Shown: positions 3,541 to 38,251 of the stretch, piece by piece | Numbering within the stretch: position 1 is the first letter of the stretch | Layout of the letters: each line of letters begins with the position of its first letter | Assembly (NCBI GenBank): GCA_026398135.1 | Contig: JAPLTN010000013.1 | Location: forward strand, 1-38,322 | Length of the DNA stretch: 38,322 nucleotides | DNA from: Verrucomicrobiota bacterium | Lineage (GTDB): Bacteria; Verrucomicrobiota; Verrucomicrobiia; Opitutales; Opitutaceae | Direction: 5' to 3' | Translations under genes and position numbers: made by a program | The notes under the pieces: generated by a model | Seen by the model: only the letters and a program-made list of their open reading frames with translations | Told to the model about the DNA's origin: nothing | Database searches by the model: none

Positions 3541-5298
3541 ATGTCCGTCCCGCCGCCCGACGCTTCTCCCTCGCCTGAACCCGCGCCGTATATCGCCACC
3601 GAGAGCGTGGTGAGCGTGGGTTGGTTTAGCCGTCATGCCGAGCGCATCGCGGCGGCGGTGGTCTTTATCCTCGGGGCGGCGGCGGCGGTGTTGATGATGC
3701 CGCCCTCGCGGTATCCCGAGCTGGCCTATGTGTTCGCGGCTCCGGCGGTTTTCTGGGCCTATCGGGCACCGAGCTGGCGGTGGTTTCTCGGCTCGGTGCT
3801 CGGTGCGCAGATGGTAGCGTGGACCATCACGCTCGGCTGGCTGGGCAACGTGACCTGGGCGGGTTTGTTTTTGCTCGGCCCGTTTTTGGGCCTGTGGGTC
3901 GGGAGCTGGTTTGTGGCGGTGCGTTGGGTCATGCCACGTCTGACCGGGAGACCCTGGGCTCATCGTATTCTCGCGGTCCTCGGCCTGGCTGGCGCTTGGG
4001 TACTTCTTGAGTGGACCCGGACGTGGGTTTTGAGCGGTTTCCCCTGGCTGACCCTTTCGGCGACGCAGTGGCAGCGCCTCAGTGTGCTTCAACCGGCGGC
4101 CTACACCGGGGCCTGGGGGGTGTCTTTCGTGCTGATCGCCGTGAATGTCGCCTTCGCCGCCTACGGACACAAATTACTGGCGAAGGGTGAGGACCGCGCA
4201 CGCACGCGTTGCCCGGAGTTTATCGCCGCGATGGTGCTGCTGCTCGGCTGCCTTTTACTCACCGCCACGGAAACCTTTAATCGCGCGCGTTTCCATCGGC
4301 AATGGGCCAACGTCGCCTTTGTTCAGCCCGCCATTCCGCAGTCGGTTAAATGGGATGAAAGCCAAGCTAACAATATCCTCAAAACCCTGGAAACCGAAAC
4401 GCTGAAGGCTGCCTTCGGCGGGCCGGATCTGCTGCTTTGGCCTGAAGCAACCACACCGCTCGCGGTTCAGGGAGACGATTTTATGCGGAGCTGGGTCGAG
4501 GGCCTGGTGCGCAAGGCCAAAGCTCCCATGTTGCTGGGTTCGATTGGCTACGAGAAGGAGGCGGACAGGAGCTTGCGGTGGACGAACGGAGTGTTTCAGG
4601 TCACTCCCGCAGCCGGATTGGCGGCGGAATCTTACGCGAAACGCCATCTCGTGCCTTTTGGCGAATATGTGCCTATGAGGCCTGTGCTCGGTTGGTTGGA
4701 AAAATTTGTGCCAGTGGGAGGGGATTTTACCCCCGGAAACAAGCCGGGACTGCTCACTGTGACGGCAGGGCCGGCCGGCCAGGTCACCCGCATTGGCTCT
4801 CTGATTTGCTACGAGGACATTTTCCCCTCGCTGGCCAGGGAAAGCGTGCGGGCCGGGGCGGAGGTTTTGATCGTGCAGACCAACAACGGCTGGTTCGGCG
4901 AAGGCGCGGCCGCTTACCAGCACGCGGCGCACGCGGTGTTGCGCGCGGTGGAAACGCGTCGGCCGGTATTGCGGGCGGGCAACGCGGGCTGGAGCGGCTG
5001 GATCGACGAGTGCGGGGCCATCCGCGCGGTCTTGACCCAAGTCAACCCCGGCGGTCCGGTTCGCACCGTTCCCGCCGAACGCGGAGAAAACGCCGGCACG
5101 ATCTATTTCCGCGGCGGGGCCACGGTGCAGGTGACGCGCGATGCCCGTTACCTCGGCGTCGAAACGTTTTACGTACAGTGGGGCGATTGGTTCGTGGCCG
5201 TCAGCGCCGGGCTGGCCCTGGCCACGTGGTTGCGCCTGCGTCGGCCTTATATCGCTCCAGTGGAGCGGGAGTCGGCTGATCGCCCATTCACGCTCTGA
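3541..5298 (+). CDS. lnt: apolipoprotein N-acyltransferase
   Basis: Inner-membrane enzyme that N-acylates the diacylglyceryl-cysteine of apolipoproteins, the last step of lipoprotein maturation. 585 residues, somewhat longer than the E. coli protein because of an N-terminal Pro-rich tail. Several membrane helices (about residues 35-245) precede a nitrilase-fold domain (about 255-545) and one C-terminal helix. The Glu-Lys-Cys triad is visible: E302 in LLLWPEA, K367 in YAKRHLVPFGEY and C423 in SLICYED, followed by the family motif NNGWFG. The ATG at 3541 has no Shine-Dalgarno sequence. rnhB follows after 12 bases, so the two are probably one transcript. The SCO1-type lipoprotein at 8613 would be a substrate. 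Confidence 0.95.
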   Translation: MSVPPPDASPSPEPAPYIATESVVSVGWFSRHAERIAAAVVFILGAAAAVLMMPPSRYPELAYVFAAPAVFWAYRAPSWRWFLGSVLGAQMVAWTITLGWLGNVTWAGLFLLGPFLGLWVGSWFVAVRWVMPRLTGRPWAHRILAVLGLAGAWVLLEWTRTWVLSGFPWLTLSATQWQRLSVLQPAAYTGAWGVSFVLIAVNVAFAAYGHKLLAKGEDRARTRCPEFIAAMVLLLGCLLLTATETFNRARFHRQWANVAFVQPAIPQSVKWDESQANNILKTLETETLKAAFGGPDLLLWPEATTPLAVQGDDFMRSWVEGLVRKAKAPMLLGSIGYEKEADRSLRWTNGVFQVTPAAGLAAESYAKRHLVPFGEYVPMRPVLGWLEKFVPVGGDFTPGNKPGLLTVTAGPAGQVTRIGSLICYEDIFPSLARESVRAGAEVLIVQTNNGWFGEGAAAYQHAAHAVLRAVETRRPVLRAGNAGWSGWIDECGAIRAVLTQVNPGGPVRTVPAERGENAGTIYFRGGATVQVTRDARYLGVETFYVQWGDWFVAVSAGLALATWLRLRRPYIAPVERESADRPFTL

Positions 5299-16866: not shown

Positions 16867-17643
16867 ATGCTCTCCACCCTTGGCCAATCCACGCTGCGTA
16901 TCGTCGCCGAATCCGGCGACCTCGCGCGTTTTACCGCTCGCGGCTTCACCTCCGCCATCGGCTCGCGTCGCTTGGGACGCCGCCTGGTGCGCGCGGTTTA
17001 TGAACAGGGTGTGCGTTGCCTGCCGGTTATCTTGATCGTCGGGCTTTTCACCGGTCTCGTCCTCGGCCTGCAAGGCTACCACACCCTCACCGGCTTTGGT
17101 TCGGCCGCGTTGCTGGGACCCTTGGTTGCCAACAGTCTGGTACGCGAACTCGCCCCCGTGCTCGCCGCTCTGATGCTGGTCGGCCAGGCCGGCTCCGCCC
17201 TGACCGCCGAACTCGGCATCCAGCGCAACTCCGAGCAAATCGACGCCCTCGAAACCATGGGGATAGACCCCTACGGCTTTCTCATCGCCCCGCGCCTCAT
17301 CGCCGCCCTCTTGGTTTACCCGATCATGACCGGTTTTTTCTCCCTCATCGGTCTGGTCGGCGGCTGGCTTTCCGGCTCGGTGCTGCTCCCCTTGCCCGGC
17401 AGTGTTTACTGGGCCTCGGTGGACCAGGCCATCGACCTCGGTGACATCGGGCAGTCCGTGGTCAAATCCCTCGTCTTCGGCGCGCTCACCATGGCGCTCT
17501 GCTGTTACAATGGCTTCAACGCCCATCGTCGCAGCGGAGCCACCGGCGCGCGCGCCGTATCCGCCTCCACCACCCGCGCGGTGGTGTTCTCCAGCATCGG
17601 CGTGCTCGCGGCAGATTACCTCGTGACCTCCCTCCTCGTATGA
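16867..17643 (+). CDS. mlaE: phospholipid transport ABC permease MlaE
   Basis: 258-residue inner-membrane permease of the Mla system, which moves phospholipids between inner and outer membranes. The ATG at 16867 gives the usual length; the frame is open upstream but not conserved-looking. Family motifs: LIVGLFTGLVLGLQGY, LGPLVANSLVRELAPVLAALM and AELGIQRNSEQIDALETMGIDPYGFL, the coupling loop to the ATPase. Five or six helices. First gene of a seven-gene co-directional run ending at 23100. Its stop overlaps the mlaF start (ATGA). Confidence 0.95.
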   Translation: MLSTLGQSTLRIVAESGDLARFTARGFTSAIGSRRLGRRLVRAVYEQGVRCLPVILIVGLFTGLVLGLQGYHTLTGFGSAALLGPLVANSLVRELAPVLAALMLVGQAGSALTAELGIQRNSEQIDALETMGIDPYGFLIAPRLIAALLVYPIMTGFFSLIGLVGGWLSGSVLLPLPGSVYWASVDQAIDLGDIGQSVVKSLVFGALTMALCCYNGFNAHRRSGATGARAVSASTTRAVVFSSIGVLAADYLVTSLLV

Positions 17644-18473
17644 GCACGCCCGCACCTGCTTCTGCCGCTGTTTCCGCTCCGCCGCTGCTGGCCATCCGCT
17701 CGTTGCAAAAACGCTTCGGCGAACGCGTGGTCTTGGCGGACGTCACCCTGACCGTGCCGCGCGGTCGCGTGCTCGCCGTGGTAGGCAAAAGCGGCACCGG
17801 CAAATCCGTCTTGCTCAAGTGCCTCGCCGGCGTGCTCGCGCCCGATGCCGGCGAGGTCTGTTTCGAGGGACGCCCGCTCAGTTCCCATGACCCGGTCGCA
17901 CTGGCCGATTTCCGCCGCCGCTGCAGCTACCTTTTTCAGGGCAACGCCCTGCTCGACTCGCTCACCGCCTGGGAAAACGTCGCCCTGCCGCTCGAACAGG
18001 CCACCCTCCTGCCCAAACCCGAAATCCGCGCCCGCGTGGCCGAGGCGCTGCGCCGCCTCGAACTCGAAGGCGACGCCCTGCGCTACCCGTCCCAGCTCTC
18101 CGGCGGCATGCAAAAACGCCTCGCCCTGGCCCGCGCGCTCGTGACCCGCCCCGAACTCGTGCTGTTCGACGAACCCACCGCCGGCCTCGACCCCTTGCGG
18201 CGCAACGCCGTCTTCACCCTCATCGCCCACGCCCAGCGCGAATTCGGCTTCACTGCCGTAGTCGTCACCCACGATCTGCCCGAAGCCCTGGCCGCCTGCG
18301 ACGAGGTCGCCTTTCTCGACGACGGCCGGGTGCGCTTCTCCGGCCCGCCCAGCGCCTTTATCCACTCGACCGACGAAGCCGTGGCCGCCTTCCGCGATAG
18401 CACGAGCGCGCTCGCCCAGTCCGTCGCCGCGCTCCGCGCCGGCGGCCCCCTGCCGGCCGACACCCTCGGCTGA
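17640..18473 (+). CDS. mlaF: phospholipid transport ABC ATPase MlaF
   Basis: 277-residue cytoplasmic ATPase partner of MlaE. Walker A GKSGTGKS (about residues 49-56), Q-loop LFQGNALLDSLTAWENVALPL, signature LSGGMQKR, Walker B LVLFDEPTAGLDP and H-loop VVTHDLPEA are all intact. LxGxxxxD-type MlaF features (LFDSLTVFENV-like) are matched by LLDSLTAWENV. The C-terminal extension after about residue 240 is Ala-rich. No mlaB (STAS protein), which binds MlaF in E. coli, is found in this operon. Overlaps mlaE by 4 bases; mlaD follows after 42. Confidence 0.95.
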   Translation: MSTPAPASAAVSAPPLLAIRSLQKRFGERVVLADVTLTVPRGRVLAVVGKSGTGKSVLLKCLAGVLAPDAGEVCFEGRPLSSHDPVALADFRRRCSYLFQGNALLDSLTAWENVALPLEQATLLPKPEIRARVAEALRRLELEGDALRYPSQLSGGMQKRLALARALVTRPELVLFDEPTAGLDPLRRNAVFTLIAHAQREFGFTAVVVTHDLPEALAACDEVAFLDDGRVRFSGPPSAFIHSTDEAVAAFRDSTSALAQSVAALRAGGPLPADTLG

Positions 18474-18515
18474 ACCACACCCACTCACGCCCAAGCCCTT
18501 AACTTCCCGCCTTCG

Positions 18516-19013
18516 ATGCAGCCCTCGCCCGTCAAATATACCCGCCTCGACCTCACCGTCGGCACCTTCGTCCTCGCCGGCCTGCTCGCCCTCGCCTACC
18601 TCGCGCTCAAAATCGGCGGCGGCGCCTTCGTCGGCGGCGACACCACCACCGTGCGCGCCCGCTTCAACAACCTCGGCGGCCTTGCCCCCGGCGCCAGCGT
18701 TCTCATCTCCGGCGTCGCCGTCGGCAAAGTAGAAAAAGTCGAGCTCGACGACCGCTTCGCCGCCATCGCCACCCTCCGCATCCGCAAAGACCTGCGCCTT
18801 CCGGCCGACTCCCTCGCCGCCATCCGTTCCAGCGGCCTGATCGGCGATAAACACATCGCCCTCACCCCCGGGGCCGACGATGCGCTGCTCACCCCCGGCT
18901 CGCTCATCATCGACACCGAGAGCGCGGTCGATCTGGAGTCGCTGATCAGCCGCTTCGCCTTCGGCAGCGTGGATAAAAAAGACGCCGCCAAACCCGTCCC
19001 AAAACCGGAATAA
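18516..19013 (+). CDS. mlaD: MCE-domain phospholipid-binding protein MlaD
   Basis: 165 residues. One N-terminal membrane helix (about 12-32) and one MCE domain (about 42-120): FNNLGGLAPGASVLISGVAVGKVEKVELDD, then LRIRKDLRLPADSLAAIRSSGLIGDKHIAL, the standard MlaD pattern. MlaD forms a hexameric ring bound to MlaE on the periplasmic face. The C-terminal tail from about 135 is short and ends Lys/Pro-rich. Fourth-position spacing differs from E. coli: 42 bases after mlaF and 90 bases before mlaC, with a hairpin in the latter gap. Confidence 0.95.
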   Translation: MQPSPVKYTRLDLTVGTFVLAGLLALAYLALKIGGGAFVGGDTTTVRARFNNLGGLAPGASVLISGVAVGKVEKVELDDRFAAIATLRIRKDLRLPADSLAAIRSSGLIGDKHIALTPGADDALLTPGSLIIDTESAVDLESLISRFAFGSVDKKDAAKPVPKPE

Positions 19014-19053
19014 GCCCTCGTCCGCCCCACTTCGCCAAAAATGCGCGGGGTTT

Positions 19054-19088
19054 TTGAGTGAAGTTTCCTGAAATTCACGTTCACTCAA
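19054..19088. repeat. inverted repeat between mlaD and mlaC
   Basis: TTGAGTGAA (19054-19062) and TTCACTCAA (19080-19088) are perfect 9-bp arms with a 17-base loop. An alternative inner pairing GTGAA/TTCAC exists. There is no U-tract after it, so it is more likely a processing or stability element, or a binding site, than a terminator. Confidence 0.5.
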
Positions 19089-19103
19089 CCTCCCCTATTT
19101 CCC

Positions 19104-19733
19104 ATGTTTGGCTTTAACCTCTCCGCCCTGCTTCCCTACGCATGCCGCCCTTTGGTCGTTTTCTCCTCCTTGGCGCTCACCCATTTGAGTCCGGCCGCGC
19201 CGGTGGACGATGCTCGCAACGCCTTGGTCGCAAGCATCAACGAAGTCTCCACCGCGCTGCGCGAGCGCCCCAAACAGGACGACCTGATCAAGCTCCTCGA
19301 TACGCTGGTGGACAAACATTTCGCATTTGAGACCACCACCCGGCTGGCCATTGGACCCGCCTGGCGCGATCTCAAGCCGACCGAACAGCAAAACCTCACC
19401 CACCTCTTCAGCCGCCTCGTTATCCGCACCTACGCCGATCGCGTGGGCGGCGACTCCGCCCCTCAAATCGTTTACAGCGCCCCCACCGAACTTCGCCCCG
19501 GCCGGGTGGAAATCCCCACCCGCGTCACCAGTGCCGGACAGACTTACGCCATCGCCTATCGCCTCGATCTCGATCCGGCGAGCAATCGCTGGCGGATTTA
19601 CGACGTGGTTGCCGAGGGTGTTTCCCTGATCGCCAACTATCGCTCGCAATTCGATCCCATCATCCGCAAGTCCGGCGCATCCGGCCTGATTCATACCTTG
19701 GAACTTAAACTCGCCGACGCCACGGCCCGCTAA
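19104..19733 (+). CDS. mlaC: periplasmic phospholipid-binding protein MlaC
   Basis: 209 residues with an N-terminal signal sequence ending near LSPAAPVDDA. MlaC (Ttg2D) carries phospholipid across the periplasm between MlaA and MlaFED. Family features: an N-terminal helical part KQDDLIKLLDTLVDKHFAFE, AIGPAWRDLKPTEQQNLTHLFSRLVIRTYADR, and the C-terminal beta part WRIYDVVAEGVSLIANYRSQFDPIIRKSGASGLI. Length is normal. Starts 90 bases after mlaD; mlaA follows after 21. Confidence 0.94.
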   Translation: MFGFNLSALLPYACRPLVVFSSLALTHLSPAAPVDDARNALVASINEVSTALRERPKQDDLIKLLDTLVDKHFAFETTTRLAIGPAWRDLKPTEQQNLTHLFSRLVIRTYADRVGGDSAPQIVYSAPTELRPGRVEIPTRVTSAGQTYAIAYRLDLDPASNRWRIYDVVAEGVSLIANYRSQFDPIIRKSGASGLIHTLELKLADATAR

Positions 19734-19754
19734 ATCCGCCCGACTCGCCCCGCC

Positions 19755-20561
19755 ATGTCTCGCTTCGCTCCCCGGCTTTTGCCCTTCTTGCTCACCCTCG
19801 CCTGCTTGGCGAGCGTGGTGTCGCTCCAGGCCCAAAGCGGCTTCTATTCGCCGCGCTCACTCAAGGAAAAGTCCGGCGCACCAACGGTTCAGGACGACTA
19901 TGACGATTACGCCGCGCCCGTCATCAGCGACCCCTTCGAGAGCTTTAACCGGGCTGTTTTCACCTTCAACGACCGCGCCTACACCTACGTTTTGACCCCC
20001 TTCTCCAAGGGTTACGAAACCATCGTGCGTCCCCCGGTTAATCGCTCCATCGCCAACTTCTACGACAACGTGCGCTACCCGGTGCGCCTCGTGAACAGCC
20101 TGCTCCAGGGGAAATTCAAACGTGCCGGCCTGGAAACCCAGAAGTTCTACGTTAACACTGTCGCCGGGCTCGGCGGCTTCATTCGCCAAAGCGATACCAT
20201 ACCCGCACTCGCCCGGATCCCCCGCGAAGACTTTGGCCAAACCCTCGGCGTCTGGGGCGTGCCGCACGGCCCCTACATCGTGGTGCCGATTCTCGGCGGC
20301 TACAGCCTGCGCGATCTGGCCGGACGCGCCTCGGACACCGTGGTCTCGCCCTCGGGCTGGCAATATATCGACTTTGCCGATCACCGTTGGGTTGGAGAGC
20401 TCAGCTGGCAGTGGCAGACCACCATCGCCGTGACCGATACCATGAGCACATTGCCCTCCGTGCTGGATCTCTATGCGCAGATGAAAAAAGCGGCGGTCGA
20501 TCCCTACCTCTCCGTTCGCGATGGCTTTCGCCGCTACCGCGACGCCGAGACGGCCAAATAA
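19755..20561 (+). CDS. mlaA: outer-membrane lipid-asymmetry protein MlaA (VacJ)
   Basis: 268 residues. In E. coli MlaA is an outer-membrane lipoprotein that removes phospholipid from the outer leaflet and passes it to MlaC. Family motifs: ISDPFESFNRAVFTFND, RPPVNRSIANFYDNVRYP, RIPREDFGQTLGVWGVPHGPYIVVPILGGYSLRD. The N-terminus is a signal peptide; C17 (LTLAC) is a poor lipobox because Thr is at -3, so cleavage after LQA by signal peptidase I is also possible. Unlike E. coli, where mlaA is separate, it is inside the mla operon here. Confidence 0.93.
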   Translation: MSRFAPRLLPFLLTLACLASVVSLQAQSGFYSPRSLKEKSGAPTVQDDYDDYAAPVISDPFESFNRAVFTFNDRAYTYVLTPFSKGYETIVRPPVNRSIANFYDNVRYPVRLVNSLLQGKFKRAGLETQKFYVNTVAGLGGFIRQSDTIPALARIPREDFGQTLGVWGVPHGPYIVVPILGGYSLRDLAGRASDTVVSPSGWQYIDFADHRWVGELSWQWQTTIAVTDTMSTLPSVLDLYAQMKKAAVDPYLSVRDGFRRYRDAETAK

Positions 20562-20575
20562 TCGCCAGGCCTCTT

Positions 20576-21427
20576 ATGCTCGGCTGGCCCCAACCTTACC
20601 TCGGCTCCGAGATTTCCCCGTCGGCAAACCGATCCTTGGGGCTCTTAGGTTTGGTCGTGCTGGGTGTGCTCGCGCTTTCCTCGATGCTCCGCGCCGACCC
20701 CGGCGATCAACCCACCACCCGCATCGCCCTGTTGCGCGAAGCCTACGAAGCCCGCTTCTACGCGCCGCCTGCCGAGACCGCCCTGCGCGGTCTCATCGTT
20801 TTCGGCTCGGGCGACGGCGGCTGGTCCTACTGGGAGGAACGTATCAGCCGCCACCTCGCGACGCGTGGTTTCGCCGTGGCGGGCGTGGATTTTCAGGCCT
20901 ATGCCGCTCAACCCTTCAGCGCCGAAATCCTGCGCGAGGACTACCGCCGCCTGGTGGCCGAACTCCGTCTCCGCCACCCCGACGCCACCACGTTGCCTCT
21001 GCTCTATGGCGGCTGGTCCATGGGCGCGGAACACGCCTTCCCCGCCGCCGCCGACCGTGCCGCCCGCCCGGCCGGGCTCTGCGGTCTGATCCTCGTCGCC
21101 CCCGGCGCGCGCGCCCGCTACGGCCTGAAATTAAGCGACAAACTCGGCATCACCCCGACCGGCGAAGACACCTTCGCCCTGCGTGATCTGGCCCCGGCCT
21201 GCGCGGACCTGCGCCTCGCCGCCTTCCACGGCGGGCTGGACCCGCTCGACGACCTGGAATGGCCCAAAGGCCTTGATCTCGATCACCGCCTGTGGGTCAT
21301 CCCCCGCGTGCTGCACGATTTCAGCAACGCCGGGGAAGGCCTGCGCAACGCACTCGACGACGCCCTTTTTTGGCTGCTTCAGCCGCCGCGCTCACCTGCG
21401 GATGCCACGCCTGCGGCCGCCCCATGA
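20576..21427 (+). CDS. VirJ/AcvB-like periplasmic serine hydrolase
   Basis: 283 residues from the ATG at 20576, 14 bases after mlaA. One N-terminal hydrophobic segment (about 21-38) is a signal or anchor, followed by an alpha/beta-hydrolase fold. VirJ-type motifs: VFGSGDGGWSYWEERIS, AVAGVDFQAYAAQPFSAE, and the nucleophile elbow GGWSMGAE (S148). Likely acid and base are D222 (GLDPLDD) and H247 (VLHDFS). Agrobacterium AcvB and Rhizobium AtvA act on or with lysyl-phosphatidylglycerol and sit next to mprF/lpiA. Here the next gene is also MprF-like and overlaps by ATGA, so aminoacyl-phosphatidylglycerol hydrolysis is the best guess. A general hydrolase cannot be excluded. Confidence 0.82.
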   Translation: MLGWPQPYLGSEISPSANRSLGLLGLVVLGVLALSSMLRADPGDQPTTRIALLREAYEARFYAPPAETALRGLIVFGSGDGGWSYWEERISRHLATRGFAVAGVDFQAYAAQPFSAEILREDYRRLVAELRLRHPDATTLPLLYGGWSMGAEHAFPAAADRAARPAGLCGLILVAPGARARYGLKLSDKLGITPTGEDTFALRDLAPACADLRLAAFHGGLDPLDDLEWPKGLDLDHRLWVIPRVLHDFSNAGEGLRNALDDALFWLLQPPRSPADATPAAAP

Positions 21428-23100
21428 ACCCAGCGTCCAGTCGCAGTGCCCGTTGGGTGCCCCGTGCGCTGGGCATCATGGTCGGAGTGGTCGGCCTTTT
21501 TCACCTCGAAGTGGCGATTTTTCCCGATCAGGCGCGCTACCTCAAAGGCATCGATCCCTGGACCCCGTTTCACATTCACTTCGGCAGCCGCGCGCTCTTG
21601 TTGATCACGGGGCTTTCCCTGCTCGCCCTCGGGCGAGGCATCGCCCGCCGCAAACGCGCCGCGTGGGGTCTGGCCGTGGGCGCGCTCGCCGCCGGTCCCG
21701 TGTTATCCATGGGCTTGGATTTCTCGTGGAAAGACGCCGTCGGCTCGGCCGTGCCCCTGGGCGTCCTCTTTTTTACCCGGCACTATTTTAACGCCCGCTC
21801 CGACGCCGGCTCCCTCCGCTTCGCCCTGAAACTCGCCGGGGCCGGCGCCACCATGTTGCTAATCTTCGGCTGGGTGGTGCTGGAGAATTTCCGCGTTAAC
21901 CTGGAGGGCCGGGACGACGCCCTGGCCCGGGTGCAGGCGGTGGCCGAGCTGGTATTCCTCCAGTCGAGCGACACCATCGTCGCCCGCACTACCGATGCGC
22001 AAACCGCGCTTTACGCCATCAGCTTCGCCGGGGCGGGCACCATTTTGCTCGTTATTCTCTCCGCGCTCCGCCCCGTGCTGCCCCCTGCGCGCGCCAGCGT
22101 GCGCGAGATCGAGCGCGTCCGCCGCATCGTGCAAACTTACGGACACGATCCACTGGACGAATTTGCCCTGACCGACGATAAACTCCACTTCTTCACCCGC
22201 GACGGCCAGTCGGTGGTGGCCTACGGCCTCTGGCGCAATTTCGCCCTGACCCTGGCCGACCCGATCGGCCCGGAGGAACACCGTGCAGCGGCGATCCGCG
22301 AGTTCATTATTTTTTGCGACCAGCAAGACTGGGAACCGGTTTTTTATGAAGTAGGCCCCGATGCGCTGGCTGCCTACCGCGATGAAGGCTTCATCACCTT
22401 CAAAATCGGCGAAGGCACCACTGTGGACCTGACAGACTTTGCGCTCAATGGACGCAAATATCAGGATCTACGCACCGCACGCAGCAGAGCGGTGCGGGAA
22501 GGGCTTAGCCTGCGTTGGTTGCAGCCCGGCTCGCCCCTCGAACCCGCCCTGGCGGAAGAGCTGCGGGCTGTCTCCGACGGGTGGTTGGAACGCAAAAAAG
22601 GCGGCGAAATGGCCTTCGATATGGGTGCCTACTCGCAGGAAGAAATCGAAGCCCGCGGGGCCGTGCTGGCGGTGCGGGCCGACGGCCGGGTAGAAGCCTT
22701 CGCCACATGGCTGCCCTACTGCGGTGGCCAAGGACGCTGCATCGACCTCATGCGCTCCCGGCCGGAAATCCCCAGCGTGATGGATTTCGTCATCGTGGAG
22801 TCCTTGCTCGCCTTTCAGTCACAAGGGCTGGTCGAAGCCAGTCTGGCCAATGCTCCATTGGCCAATATCGACCCGCCCTCCGCCAAAGAGTCGAAACACG
22901 ACAAGGCGGTGCGCTACTTCTACGAACGCTTCAACCGCCTCTACGGCTACAAGAGCCTGTTTCACTTCAAACAGAAATACCACCCGCAGTGGCGCGGGCG
23001 TTACCTGGCCTACCGCCACCCGCCTGAGTTACCCCTGATCGCCTGCGCCATGCTCGCCGTCCACAGCCCCGGTGGACTGTGGAAACTGCTGCGTTCGTAA
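21424..23100 (+). CDS. MprF-like aminoacyl-phosphatidylglycerol synthase (DUF2156), short form
   Basis: 558 residues from the ATG at 21424, which overlaps the preceding stop. About six membrane helices (residues about 12-215) lead into a cytoplasmic DUF2156 transferase domain (about 225-540). Motifs: IVQTYGHDPLDEFALTDDK, VVAYGLWRNFALTLADPIG, TTVDLTDFALNGRKYQDLR, SDGWLERKKGGEMAFDMG and KYHPQWRGRYLAYR at the end. MprF transfers Lys or Ala from aminoacyl-tRNA to phosphatidylglycerol, lowering negative surface charge. Full MprF also has an 8-helix flippase half, which is missing here. The amino acid used cannot be told from the sequence. Last gene of the mla run. Confidence 0.88.
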   Translation: MNPASSRSARWVPRALGIMVGVVGLFHLEVAIFPDQARYLKGIDPWTPFHIHFGSRALLLITGLSLLALGRGIARRKRAAWGLAVGALAAGPVLSMGLDFSWKDAVGSAVPLGVLFFTRHYFNARSDAGSLRFALKLAGAGATMLLIFGWVVLENFRVNLEGRDDALARVQAVAELVFLQSSDTIVARTTDAQTALYAISFAGAGTILLVILSALRPVLPPARASVREIERVRRIVQTYGHDPLDEFALTDDKLHFFTRDGQSVVAYGLWRNFALTLADPIGPEEHRAAAIREFIIFCDQQDWEPVFYEVGPDALAAYRDEGFITFKIGEGTTVDLTDFALNGRKYQDLRTARSRAVREGLSLRWLQPGSPLEPALAEELRAVSDGWLERKKGGEMAFDMGAYSQEEIEARGAVLAVRADGRVEAFATWLPYCGGQGRCIDLMRSRPEIPSVMDFVIVESLLAFQSQGLVEASLANAPLANIDPPSAKESKHDKAVRYFYERFNRLYGYKSLFHFKQKYHPQWRGRYLAYRHPPELPLIACAMLAVHSPGGLWKLLRS

Positions 23101-36825: not shown

Positions 36826-36834
36826 TGTGAATAA
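36826..36834. promoter_or_regulatory. DnaA-box-like motif at the 5' end of dnaA
   Basis: TGTGAATAA, one base from TGTGGATAA, 35 bases before the chosen dnaA start. DnaA commonly represses its own gene, so a box here would fit autoregulation. Confidence 0.35.
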
Positions 36835-36868
36835 TACCACGCCCATACGCTCCACGCCCCCCGTTCCA

Positions 36869-38251
36869 ATGCCTGCTGCCGCCGCACACTTAACCCTATG
36901 GGAATCCGCCAAGACTGACTTGCGAGGTCTGTTCCCGGAGGACGTGTTCAAGCTGTGGTTCGATCCCGTAGTCTGTGTAGAATCCACTCCCGACCAACTG
37001 ACCTTGGGCGTTCCCAATGACTTTGCCTCGATCTGGATCAACGACAACTACATGGACCTGATCCTCCAGCGCCTGCGCCTTACGGCCGGACGCGACATAA
37101 AAGTCACTTTACGCAAAATAGATCCCTCGAACAACGCAACGCAGTGCAACACGGCGGAATCCCCGCGAGTTCGCCCCGTTCCGCCCCGCCGCATTCCTCG
37201 CTTTGCCGAGGAACGTGTACCGATCAACACCTCGCTCAATCCGCGTAATACCTTCGAGAACTTCGTGGTTGGAGATAATAACCAAATGGCCGCCGCCGCC
37301 GCCCGAGCCGTCGCCGACTCCCCTGGGCAGTCTTACAATCCGCTTTTCCTCTATGGAGAAACCGGCCTTGGCAAGACACACCTGATGCATGCCATCGGGC
37401 ACGCCATTTTACACCGCCGCCCGGATACTCGCGTCGCCTACCTATCGGCCGAAAAATTCACGAACGACTTTATTCAAGCCATTCAGGAAAACGCCTTGAT
37501 CAAGTTTCGCCAGCGCTACCGCCACGTCGATGTGCTCCTCATCGACGATATTCAGTTTCTCGCCGGCAAAGAACGCTCCCAGGAAGAGTTTTTCCATACC
37601 TTCAACGACTTGCACGGCGCAGGAAAACAAATCGTTCTGTCGAGTGACCGCCGTGCCTCAGAAATTGAAAAACTCGAAGCCCGCCTCGTTTCCCGCTTTG
37701 AATGGGGCCTGCCCGCTGACATACAGCCGCCCGATTTCGAAACCCGCCTCGCTATTTTACGTACCAAGGCCCACGCGATGAAATGCGAATTACCCGCTCC
37801 TGTGGCGGCGTTTATCGCCCAACATATTTCTCGCAATATACGCCGCCTGGAAGGCGCCCTGATCAAAGTCGTATCCTACAGCCAATTAACCGGTAAGCCC
37901 ATCGACCTCGCAGCGGTGGAGAACCTGTTAAAAGACGTATTAATGGAACAGGCGCAAAACCAGCTCACCATCGAAGGCGTGCAAAAACGCGTGGCTGATC
38001 ACTTCCAAATCCGTCACAGTGATATGACGAGCAAACGCCGGCCCAACAATATCGCCATACCCCGACAAATCGCCATGTATATGGTACGGAATCTCATTCC
38101 CAAGCACTCCCTGCAAGAAATCGGCGATGCCTTTGGTGGTCGCGACCACGGTACTGTAATACATGCCTGCAAAGCAGTGGATAATATGCTGGCTCAAGAC
38201 GCCCACATGAAAGGGCAAATTGAGTTTCTGCGCGCCGCACTCAGTAAGTGA
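36869..38251 (+). CDS. dnaA: chromosomal replication initiator DnaA
   Basis: 460 residues from the ATG at 36869. An in-frame GTG at 36827 would add 14 residues but overlaps the DnaA-box-like motif. Domain I: LTLWESAKTDLRGLFPEDVFKLWFDP. Short Pro/Arg-rich linker, then the AAA+ domain: TFENFVVGDNNQMA, Walker A GETGLGKT, Walker B VLLIDDIQFLAGKERSQEEFFHTFN, sensor LSSDRRASEIEKLEARLVSRFEWGL. Domain IV ends with the DNA-binding signature GDAFGGRDHGTVIHACKAV. DnaA opens oriC and also regulates transcription. A perfect long hairpin follows the stop, so dnaN, if near, is not co-transcribed without readthrough. Confidence 0.96.
   Translation: MPAAAAHLTLWESAKTDLRGLFPEDVFKLWFDPVVCVESTPDQLTLGVPNDFASIWINDNYMDLILQRLRLTAGRDIKVTLRKIDPSNNATQCNTAESPRVRPVPPRRIPRFAEERVPINTSLNPRNTFENFVVGDNNQMAAAAARAVADSPGQSYNPLFLYGETGLGKTHLMHAIGHAILHRRPDTRVAYLSAEKFTNDFIQAIQENALIKFRQRYRHVDVLLIDDIQFLAGKERSQEEFFHTFNDLHGAGKQIVLSSDRRASEIEKLEARLVSRFEWGLPADIQPPDFETRLAILRTKAHAMKCELPAPVAAFIAQHISRNIRRLEGALIKVVSYSQLTGKPIDLAAVENLLKDVLMEQAQNQLTIEGVQKRVADHFQIRHSDMTSKRRPNNIAIPRQIAMYMVRNLIPKHSLQEIGDAFGGRDHGTVIHACKAVDNMLAQDAHMKGQIEFLRAALSK

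Follow-up and report, generated by a model that had tools for sequence, protein, structure and literature searches.

When an outer-membrane lipid transporter and the enzymes of aminoacyl-lipid turnover are encoded in one tight gene run, are they one machine or two neighbours? This question is raised by a 38,322-nucleotide (nt) stretch of contig JAPLTN010000013.1, hereafter the window, from a Verrucomicrobiota bacterium of the Opitutaceae whose genome (G000) is 99.86% complete. At positions 16867-23100 of the window, mlaE, mlaF, mlaD, mlaC and mlaA are followed by genes for a VirJ-family hydrolase and an MprF-type synthase, all closely spaced on the + strand. The explanation that we favour, and consider reasonably probable, is that two known modules, a Mla-type transporter and a coupled hydrolase-synthase pair that would set the level of a modified lipid, were joined, probably by one recent rearrangement.

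The seven-gene run and its spacing

The run itself is real. Coordinates and Pfam matches agree with the original prediction of seven co-directional genes separated by at most 90 bases, the last two overlapping by ATGA, and Pfam supports each of the identities then proposed. The features are as follows (lengths in amino acids, aa):

16867..17643, + strand: mlaE, permease, 258 aa; PF02405 (MlaE) match at 2.3e-67
17640..18473, + strand: mlaF, ABC ATPase, 277 aa; PF00005 (ABC_tran) match at 2.1e-34
18516..19013, + strand: mlaD, short MCE protein, 165 aa; PF02470 match at 1e-21, TIGR04430 at 145 bits (cut-off 135)
19104..19733, + strand: mlaC, periplasmic carrier, 209 aa; PF05494 match at 7.4e-39
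19755..20561, + strand: mlaA, outer-membrane component, 268 aa; PF04333 match at 1.4e-58
20562..20575, + strand: mlaA-virJ gap, 14 nt; of equal length in the alignment of G000, G125 and G118
20576..21427, + strand: VirJ/AcvB-type hydrolase, 283 aa; PF06057 match at 3e-07, 30.9 bits (cut-off 22)
21424..23100, + strand: MprF-type aminoacyl-lipid synthase, 558 aa; PF09924 (LPG_synthase_C) match at 1e-70

Both mlaE/mlaF and virJ/synthase overlap by ATGA, and the gaps in between measure 42 nt (mlaF-mlaD), 90 nt (mlaD-mlaC), 21 nt (mlaC-mlaA) and 14 nt (mlaA-virJ). The hydrolase probably starts at ATG 20576, whose distance from mlaA is unchanged in G125 and G118; a longer TTG start at 20387, which overlaps mlaA, was rejected. 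MlaD alone passes a curated NCBIfam cut-off. For MlaE, MlaF, MlaC, MlaA and the synthase, the top NCBIfam matches do not reach the cut-off (MlaF is itself the top match of mlaF, at 183.9 bits versus a cut-off of 441), as may be expected for distant relatives, and the hydrolase has no NCBIfam match. Taken together, the five Mla families point to a Mla phospholipid transporter like that of Escherichia coli, unlike which mlaA stands in one run with mlaEFDC, no mlaB occurs in the run (as had been predicted; the remainder of the genome was not searched for mlaB) and MlaA lacks a strict lipobox. The lipobox pattern, assessed by pattern match only, is absent from all 14 genus N-termini compared (G117 left out); at the corresponding place the window protein has a Cys in LTLAC and G125 a Phe. 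Several MlaA signals in the genus end in a signal-peptidase-I-like AQ, and some other Verrucomicrobiota carry LAGC or LSGC boxes.

Judged by spacing alone, mlaA, virJ and the synthase gene are likely co-transcribed. The internal promoter or terminator named beforehand as a possible objection was sought. A terminator between mlaD and mlaC was rejected, as folding z-scores of -0.79, -1.06 and +0.42 in the three genomes that share the run (see below) are not significant. A promoter inside the run was likewise rejected, with a single match, on the minus strand, where 0.8 are expected by chance; the scan covers sigma-70-like sites only. Terminator-like sites number 15 versus 5.8 in shuffled sequence, and all 15 are located inside genes.

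Gene order in relatives and the history of the junction

Gene order was compared in 15 genomes of the genus, G000 included, which are mostly fragmented bins. The complete mlaEFDCA-virJ-synthase run occurs in three (G000, G125 and G118), in identical order, and because the same seven genes recur in G125 and G118, the run is more than chance. These three genomes form one clade (support of 1.000 in FastTree trees of both the Mla proteins and the synthase), within which the synthases have diverged to 87-90% identity while gene order was kept. The junction that the original prediction put forward as new is thus genuine and extends beyond this genome, but it is local, being limited to three of 15 genomes and to one clade. 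The two parts of the mla cluster are themselves often separate: mlaEFD directly adjoins mlaCA in the three linked genomes, and mlaF-D-C-A is contiguous in G115 (four of 15 in total). In G113 the two parts are 4.6 kilobases (kb) apart, in G123 about 110 kb, and in nine genomes they occupy separate contigs. Eight of these nine extend at least 3.9 kb past mlaD without mlaC, and the ninth (G116) ends within mlaD. By eye, the G113 interval (L114:8757-12926) holds a response-regulator-like gene, a likely sensor kinase, an EF-hand-like protein and a probable haem protein. MlaA is present in all 15 genomes and orthologous MlaE (81-100% identity) in 14; G115, whose mla contig begins within mlaF, is matched only by a second, 34%-identical permease. 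Elsewhere in the genome of the window, a further MlaE-like permease and a further MCE protein are encoded close to each other (G000:C73:57174-59106; L103, L135).

The synthase is found in seven of the 15 genomes, and in four of these seven (G102, G114, G116 and G117) the pair lies away from mla. In G102 and G114, 19-20 kb around the pair contain no mlaE, D, C or A. The pair contigs of G116 and G117 span 7.0 and 7.3 kb and give no MlaA match upstream of the hydrolase; for G116, a place for mla immediately before the pair was rejected, as the 295 nt between the hydrolase GTG and the contig end hold no MlaA match. Conversely, G115 has no synthase match and neither pair gene in the 6.4 kb after mlaA, and G050, from another genus of the same family, has a contiguous mlaEFDCA without the pair, inverted between uxaC and rsmD. 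Completeness is 77-100% in the eight genus genomes that lack a synthase match, and some of these absences may be gaps.

The pair appears to be the more constant unit. The hydrolase stop and the synthase start overlap by ATGA in nine of the 10 pairs measured (the window, G125, G118, G117, G116, G102, G128, G290 and G277; for G128, the start was picked among several in frame), the exception being G114 with 11 nt between the genes. This conserved coupling suggests that the unit is the pair and not the seven-gene run. Scanning a genome collection with the synthase alignment yielded 14 loci, seven of which are the same contigs as G118, G125, G114, G117, G102, G116 and G290, and the hydrolase is located upstream in 12 of the 14 (one locus, L148, is short at 3.4 kb). 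The proposed partnership between an AcvB/VirJ-type hydrolase and an MprF-type synthase holds. MlaE, D, C and A stand beside the synthase in two of the 14 loci, again G118 and G125; the MlaF query also matches other ABC ATPases (38-43% identity) in four. In G128, a single contig of 4.7 Mb, the pair is present and MlaA has no match, and in the stretches compared, none of mlaE, D, C and A accompanies the pair in G128, G277 or G290.

Both modules are patchily distributed at larger scale. Of 113 genomes of the order, 25 gave an MlaA match, as did 152 of 387 in a phylum draw. The literature describes MlaEFD as a core of wide distribution and MlaABC as sparsely distributed, chiefly in Proteobacteria (PMC10665443), for which reason an mlaEFDCA run is not universal in Verrucomicrobiota. 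Used as a protein query, the synthase matched four of the 113 order genomes, namely G000, G102, G070 (30% identity) and G032 (E-value 4.7e-4, with an internal stop). Its closest named relatives (70-90% identity) come from metagenome bins titled Opitutaceae, Verrucomicrobia or bacterium, several with pond or lake titles. PF09924 occurs in 14 of 200 family genomes, seven of which carry long open frames (701-951 aa) like full-length MprF; in the three of these seven that were inspected, mla genes are not nearby. In one of these three (G200, L072:7124-8592), a weak VirJ match (29% identity, 5.8e-05) lies just downstream of the long-frame MprF, so that the two genes are in reverse order compared with the pair of the window. 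Across the phylum, PF09924 occurs in 140 of 387 genomes and together with MlaA in 79, among the matches listed; the two lie within 10 kb in two of them, G000 and G566 (5.8 kb, a 308-aa open frame), a lower bound as many genomes are fragmented.

Judged from these gene orders, the hydrolase-synthase pair travels as a unit in Verrucomicrobiota, independently of mla. Because adjacency is found in few of the carriers of either module, a long-standing Mla operon and a pair with its own history of spread were probably joined once, and the simplest history is that this probably happened in the clade of G000, G125 and G118. The adjacency is more likely a local arrangement of recent date than a new machine that has been conserved. 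In the surroundings of the run, Pfam matches identify rsmE, rsmD and uxaC; rsmD adjoins mlaE in 13 of the 15 genus genomes (not in G121, and the contig is cut off in G115). Elsewhere in the window, an lnt-like gene with apolipoprotein N-acyltransferase domains is located at 3541-5298, and dnaA at 36827-38251, close to the window end.

Residues of the hydrolase and architecture of the synthase

What, then, would the pair act on? The hydrolase matches AcvB (9xhm) at 9.3e-19 by profile search and at 9.3e-06 by single sequence, and PF06057 is matched by all 13 hydrolases aligned, the window protein being the weakest of the seven gene calls. Its predicted fold is that of an alpha/beta-hydrolase, with Ser148 inside the motif GWSMGAE. 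The catalytic and key residues described for AcvB, Ser269, Asp271, Ser336 and His433 (PMC13197417, PMC13135905, whose numbering is used), correspond in alignments to Ser78, Asp80, Ser148 and His247, invariant in 13 of 13; His247 lies outside the aligned stretch and was mapped by hand from chain letters. With the catalytic serine and histidine and the equivalents of Ser269 and Asp271, the protein qualifies at sequence level as a putative aminoacyl-phosphatidylglycerol hydrolase of the AcvB/VirJ type. A hydrophobic helix is predicted at residues 15-38 of its N-terminus, and export to the periplasm appears plausible.

The residues linked to lysine differ. AcvB Asp340 corresponds to Glu152, and Glu368 and Asp370 to Arg179 and Arg181, both arginines being invariant in 13 of 13. 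In AcvB, Glu368 is dispensable for activity and Asp370 contributes to it (PMC13197417). The register at Asp370/R181 is identical in the single-sequence and profile alignments, with low identity there, and the lysine-determining aspartate of AcvB aligns with an arginine in every hydrolase compared. The hydrophobic membrane loop formed by Trp378/Leu379 in AcvB is not recovered either: Lys189/Leu190 are aligned with it, in a stretch (185-190, just after R181) modelled with low confidence. Because the lysine aspartate of AcvB is replaced by an invariant arginine, the substrate is, on moderate evidence, probably not lysyl-phosphatidylglycerol (Lys-PG); a neutral amino acid would be a first guess for its moiety. 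Alternatively, Arg179 and Arg181 could hold the lipid phosphate. The counterpart of Asp370 is Thr or Ser in Brucella abortus VirJ and in the alanyl-phosphatidylglycerol (Ala-PG) organisms Pseudomonas aeruginosa and P. putida (PMC13197417).

The synthase aligns to positions 317-838 of the 841-position MprF model, i.e., its second half, with 354.5 bits (cut-off 600), and matches the MprF chains 9goe, 9j8q and 7f47 as well as the synthase domain 4v36. Six long helices that appear membrane-spanning precede the synthase domain in a model of modest quality (mean pLDDT 71.9, pTM 0.54). The residues given as essential in Staphylococcus aureus MprF (K547, K621, E624, D731, R734 and K806) correspond to K253, K327, E330, D441, R444 and K516, invariant in 10 of 10. 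This mapping follows residue spacing rather than alignment and includes an offset of four positions between E624 and D731. By sequence this is an MprF synthase domain with the residues essential in S. aureus. The flippase half, PF03706, is absent from the protein by Pfam, and no match at an E-value of 0.1 was found in G000, in a search whose positive control matched in 12 of 14 genomes. None of the 12 genomes searched, ten of them pair carriers and several only 79-92% complete, has PF03706 above cut-off (a set without the seven long-frame PF09924 genomes of the family). A separate MprF flippase was therefore rejected as a candidate; G125 yielded a sub-cut-off match only (E-value 0.0049, three internal stops).

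The known synthase-hydrolase systems place the pair. It resembles LpiA/AcvB of Agrobacterium tumefaciens, a Lys-PG synthase and a periplasmic hydrolase, in the adjacency of synthase and alpha/beta-hydrolase genes and in the conserved catalytic Ser, His and Asp271 positions. Unlike in that system, the hydrolase precedes the synthase and has a single hydrolase domain, as in VirJ, Asp370 and Trp378/Leu379 are replaced by Arg and Lys/Leu, and the synthase lacks the flippase half. PA0920 and PA0919 of P. aeruginosa are partners as Ala-PG synthase and hydrolase. Compared by description only, PA0919 shares with the window hydrolase the loss of the Asp370 lysine determinant (Thr or Ser there, PMC13197417), but the window has Arg at this position and a synthase without the flippase half. 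Similar in architecture is the engineered S. aureus MprF(-8), with about six membrane helices and the synthase domain (PMC2774229), unlike which the window synthase is natural and occurs in genomes without PF03706 above cut-off. Six transmembrane segments and the C-terminal domain of S. aureus MprF are enough for Lys-PG synthesis, and without the flippase a small Lys-PG fraction still reached the outer leaflet (PMC2774229); in full MprF, both membrane subdomains jointly form the flippase (PMC8131360). As six helices and the synthase domain suffice and some lipid crosses, the pair could in principle work without an MprF flippase.

Competing explanations and what the locus may mean

Under the favoured explanation, the first module is an mlaEFDCA phospholipid transporter that is present in part of this bacterial order. 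At the cytoplasmic face, the synthase would use aminoacyl-tRNA to attach an amino acid to phosphatidylglycerol or a similar lipid. The product would get to the periplasmic face with no MprF flippase half involved, and the hydrolase, once exported, would remove the amino acid, the pair thereby setting how much of the lipid is modified. Where the two modules are linked, in three genomes, the pair may fall under the mlaC-mlaA or the whole mla transcript and so share its expression with envelope-lipid maintenance. Gene content, order, spacing and distribution among the genomes searched, the catalytic residues and the absence of the flippase half are observed; the amino acid and lipid, the direction of transport, co-transcription and hydrolase export are what we infer, and a physical coupling to Mla is hypothetical. 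Several observations weigh against this explanation. The hydrolase is distant from AcvB (30.9 bits to PF06057), and the best 50 matches of two structure comparisons are other alpha/beta hydrolases without AcvB among them; the structure library closes on 2026-04-08, possibly before the AcvB entries were added, and such a search was discarded as a means of discrimination. One synthase locus (L144, 9 kb upstream covered) has no detectable hydrolase. A promoter or terminator could lie in the 90 nt between mlaD and mlaC. Most genomes are fragmented bins, and those of the genus without the synthase range from 77 to 100% complete, which leaves some doubt about absences and separations. Independent spread of the pair is compatible with functional coupling within the linked clade, where gene order was kept at 87-90% synthase identity.

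A division of the run into two or more transcription units, with mlaEFD expressed apart from mlaCA-virJ-synthase and the seven-gene unity only apparent, is possible though doubtful: mlaEFD and mlaCA adjoin in just four of 15 genus genomes and are separated by the widest gap of the run, but that gap has no significant hairpin and the region no + strand promoter match among sigma-70-like sites. It is unlikely that the synthase modifies a lipid other than phosphatidylglycerol, e.g., diacylglycerol, and that the hydrolase acts on that lipid. The protein is a short form with PF16995 (the transmembrane region of lysyl-tRNA synthetase), and the short MprF homologue LysX is reported to make lysyl-diacylglycerol (PMC10580965). 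Against this, it scores 354.5 bits with the MprF model versus 161.3 with the LysX model, both below cut-off, and at 558 aa it carries no C-terminal lysyl-tRNA synthetase domain by Pfam.

Slightly less credence still is given to the single make-move-trim system of the original prediction, in which the synthase makes an aminoacyl lipid, Mla moves it between the membranes and the hydrolase trims it; here Mla would also replace the missing flippase half. The contiguous order, the 14-nt gap and the ATGA overlap kept in three genomes speak for it, as does the lack of PF03706 above cut-off in all 12 genomes searched. However, the pair lies away from mla in four of seven genus carriers and in G128, G277 and G290, G128 has the pair without a MlaA match, and only two of the 79 phylum genomes listed with both families have them within 10 kb. 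Moreover, no flipping of lipids across the inner membrane is known for Mla. The Lys-PG part of that proposal fares poorly as well, given the missing flippase half and the unconserved lysine aspartate. A more specific version, for which we see only a slim chance, is that in this clade MlaEFDCA was recruited to carry, to or from the outer membrane, an aminoacyl phospholipid other than a lysyl one; a natural MprF lacking the flippase would make this lipid, and the Arg-pocket VirJ enzyme would reset it.

Among the titles and abstract beginnings listed in literature searches (20 of 218 papers in one case), nothing was found on mla beside mprF or on aminoacyl lipids in Opitutaceae, which is no proof of absence. 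What is new at sequence level, in addition to the local junction, is a flippase-less synthase with an Arg-pocket hydrolase as a form of the known synthase-hydrolase pair, which is now placed in Opitutaceae. If the pair works as proposed, it would be a natural experiment on the route by which an aminoacyl lipid gets to a periplasmic hydrolase when the flippase half of MprF is missing, and it would bear on the amino-acid specificity determinants of AcvB/VirJ hydrolases. If the link to Mla, at present based on local gene order, is functional, it would tie lipid charge to outer-membrane lipid maintenance, and should the recruitment of Mla prove true, Mla would be the carrier of a modified, charge-setting lipid.

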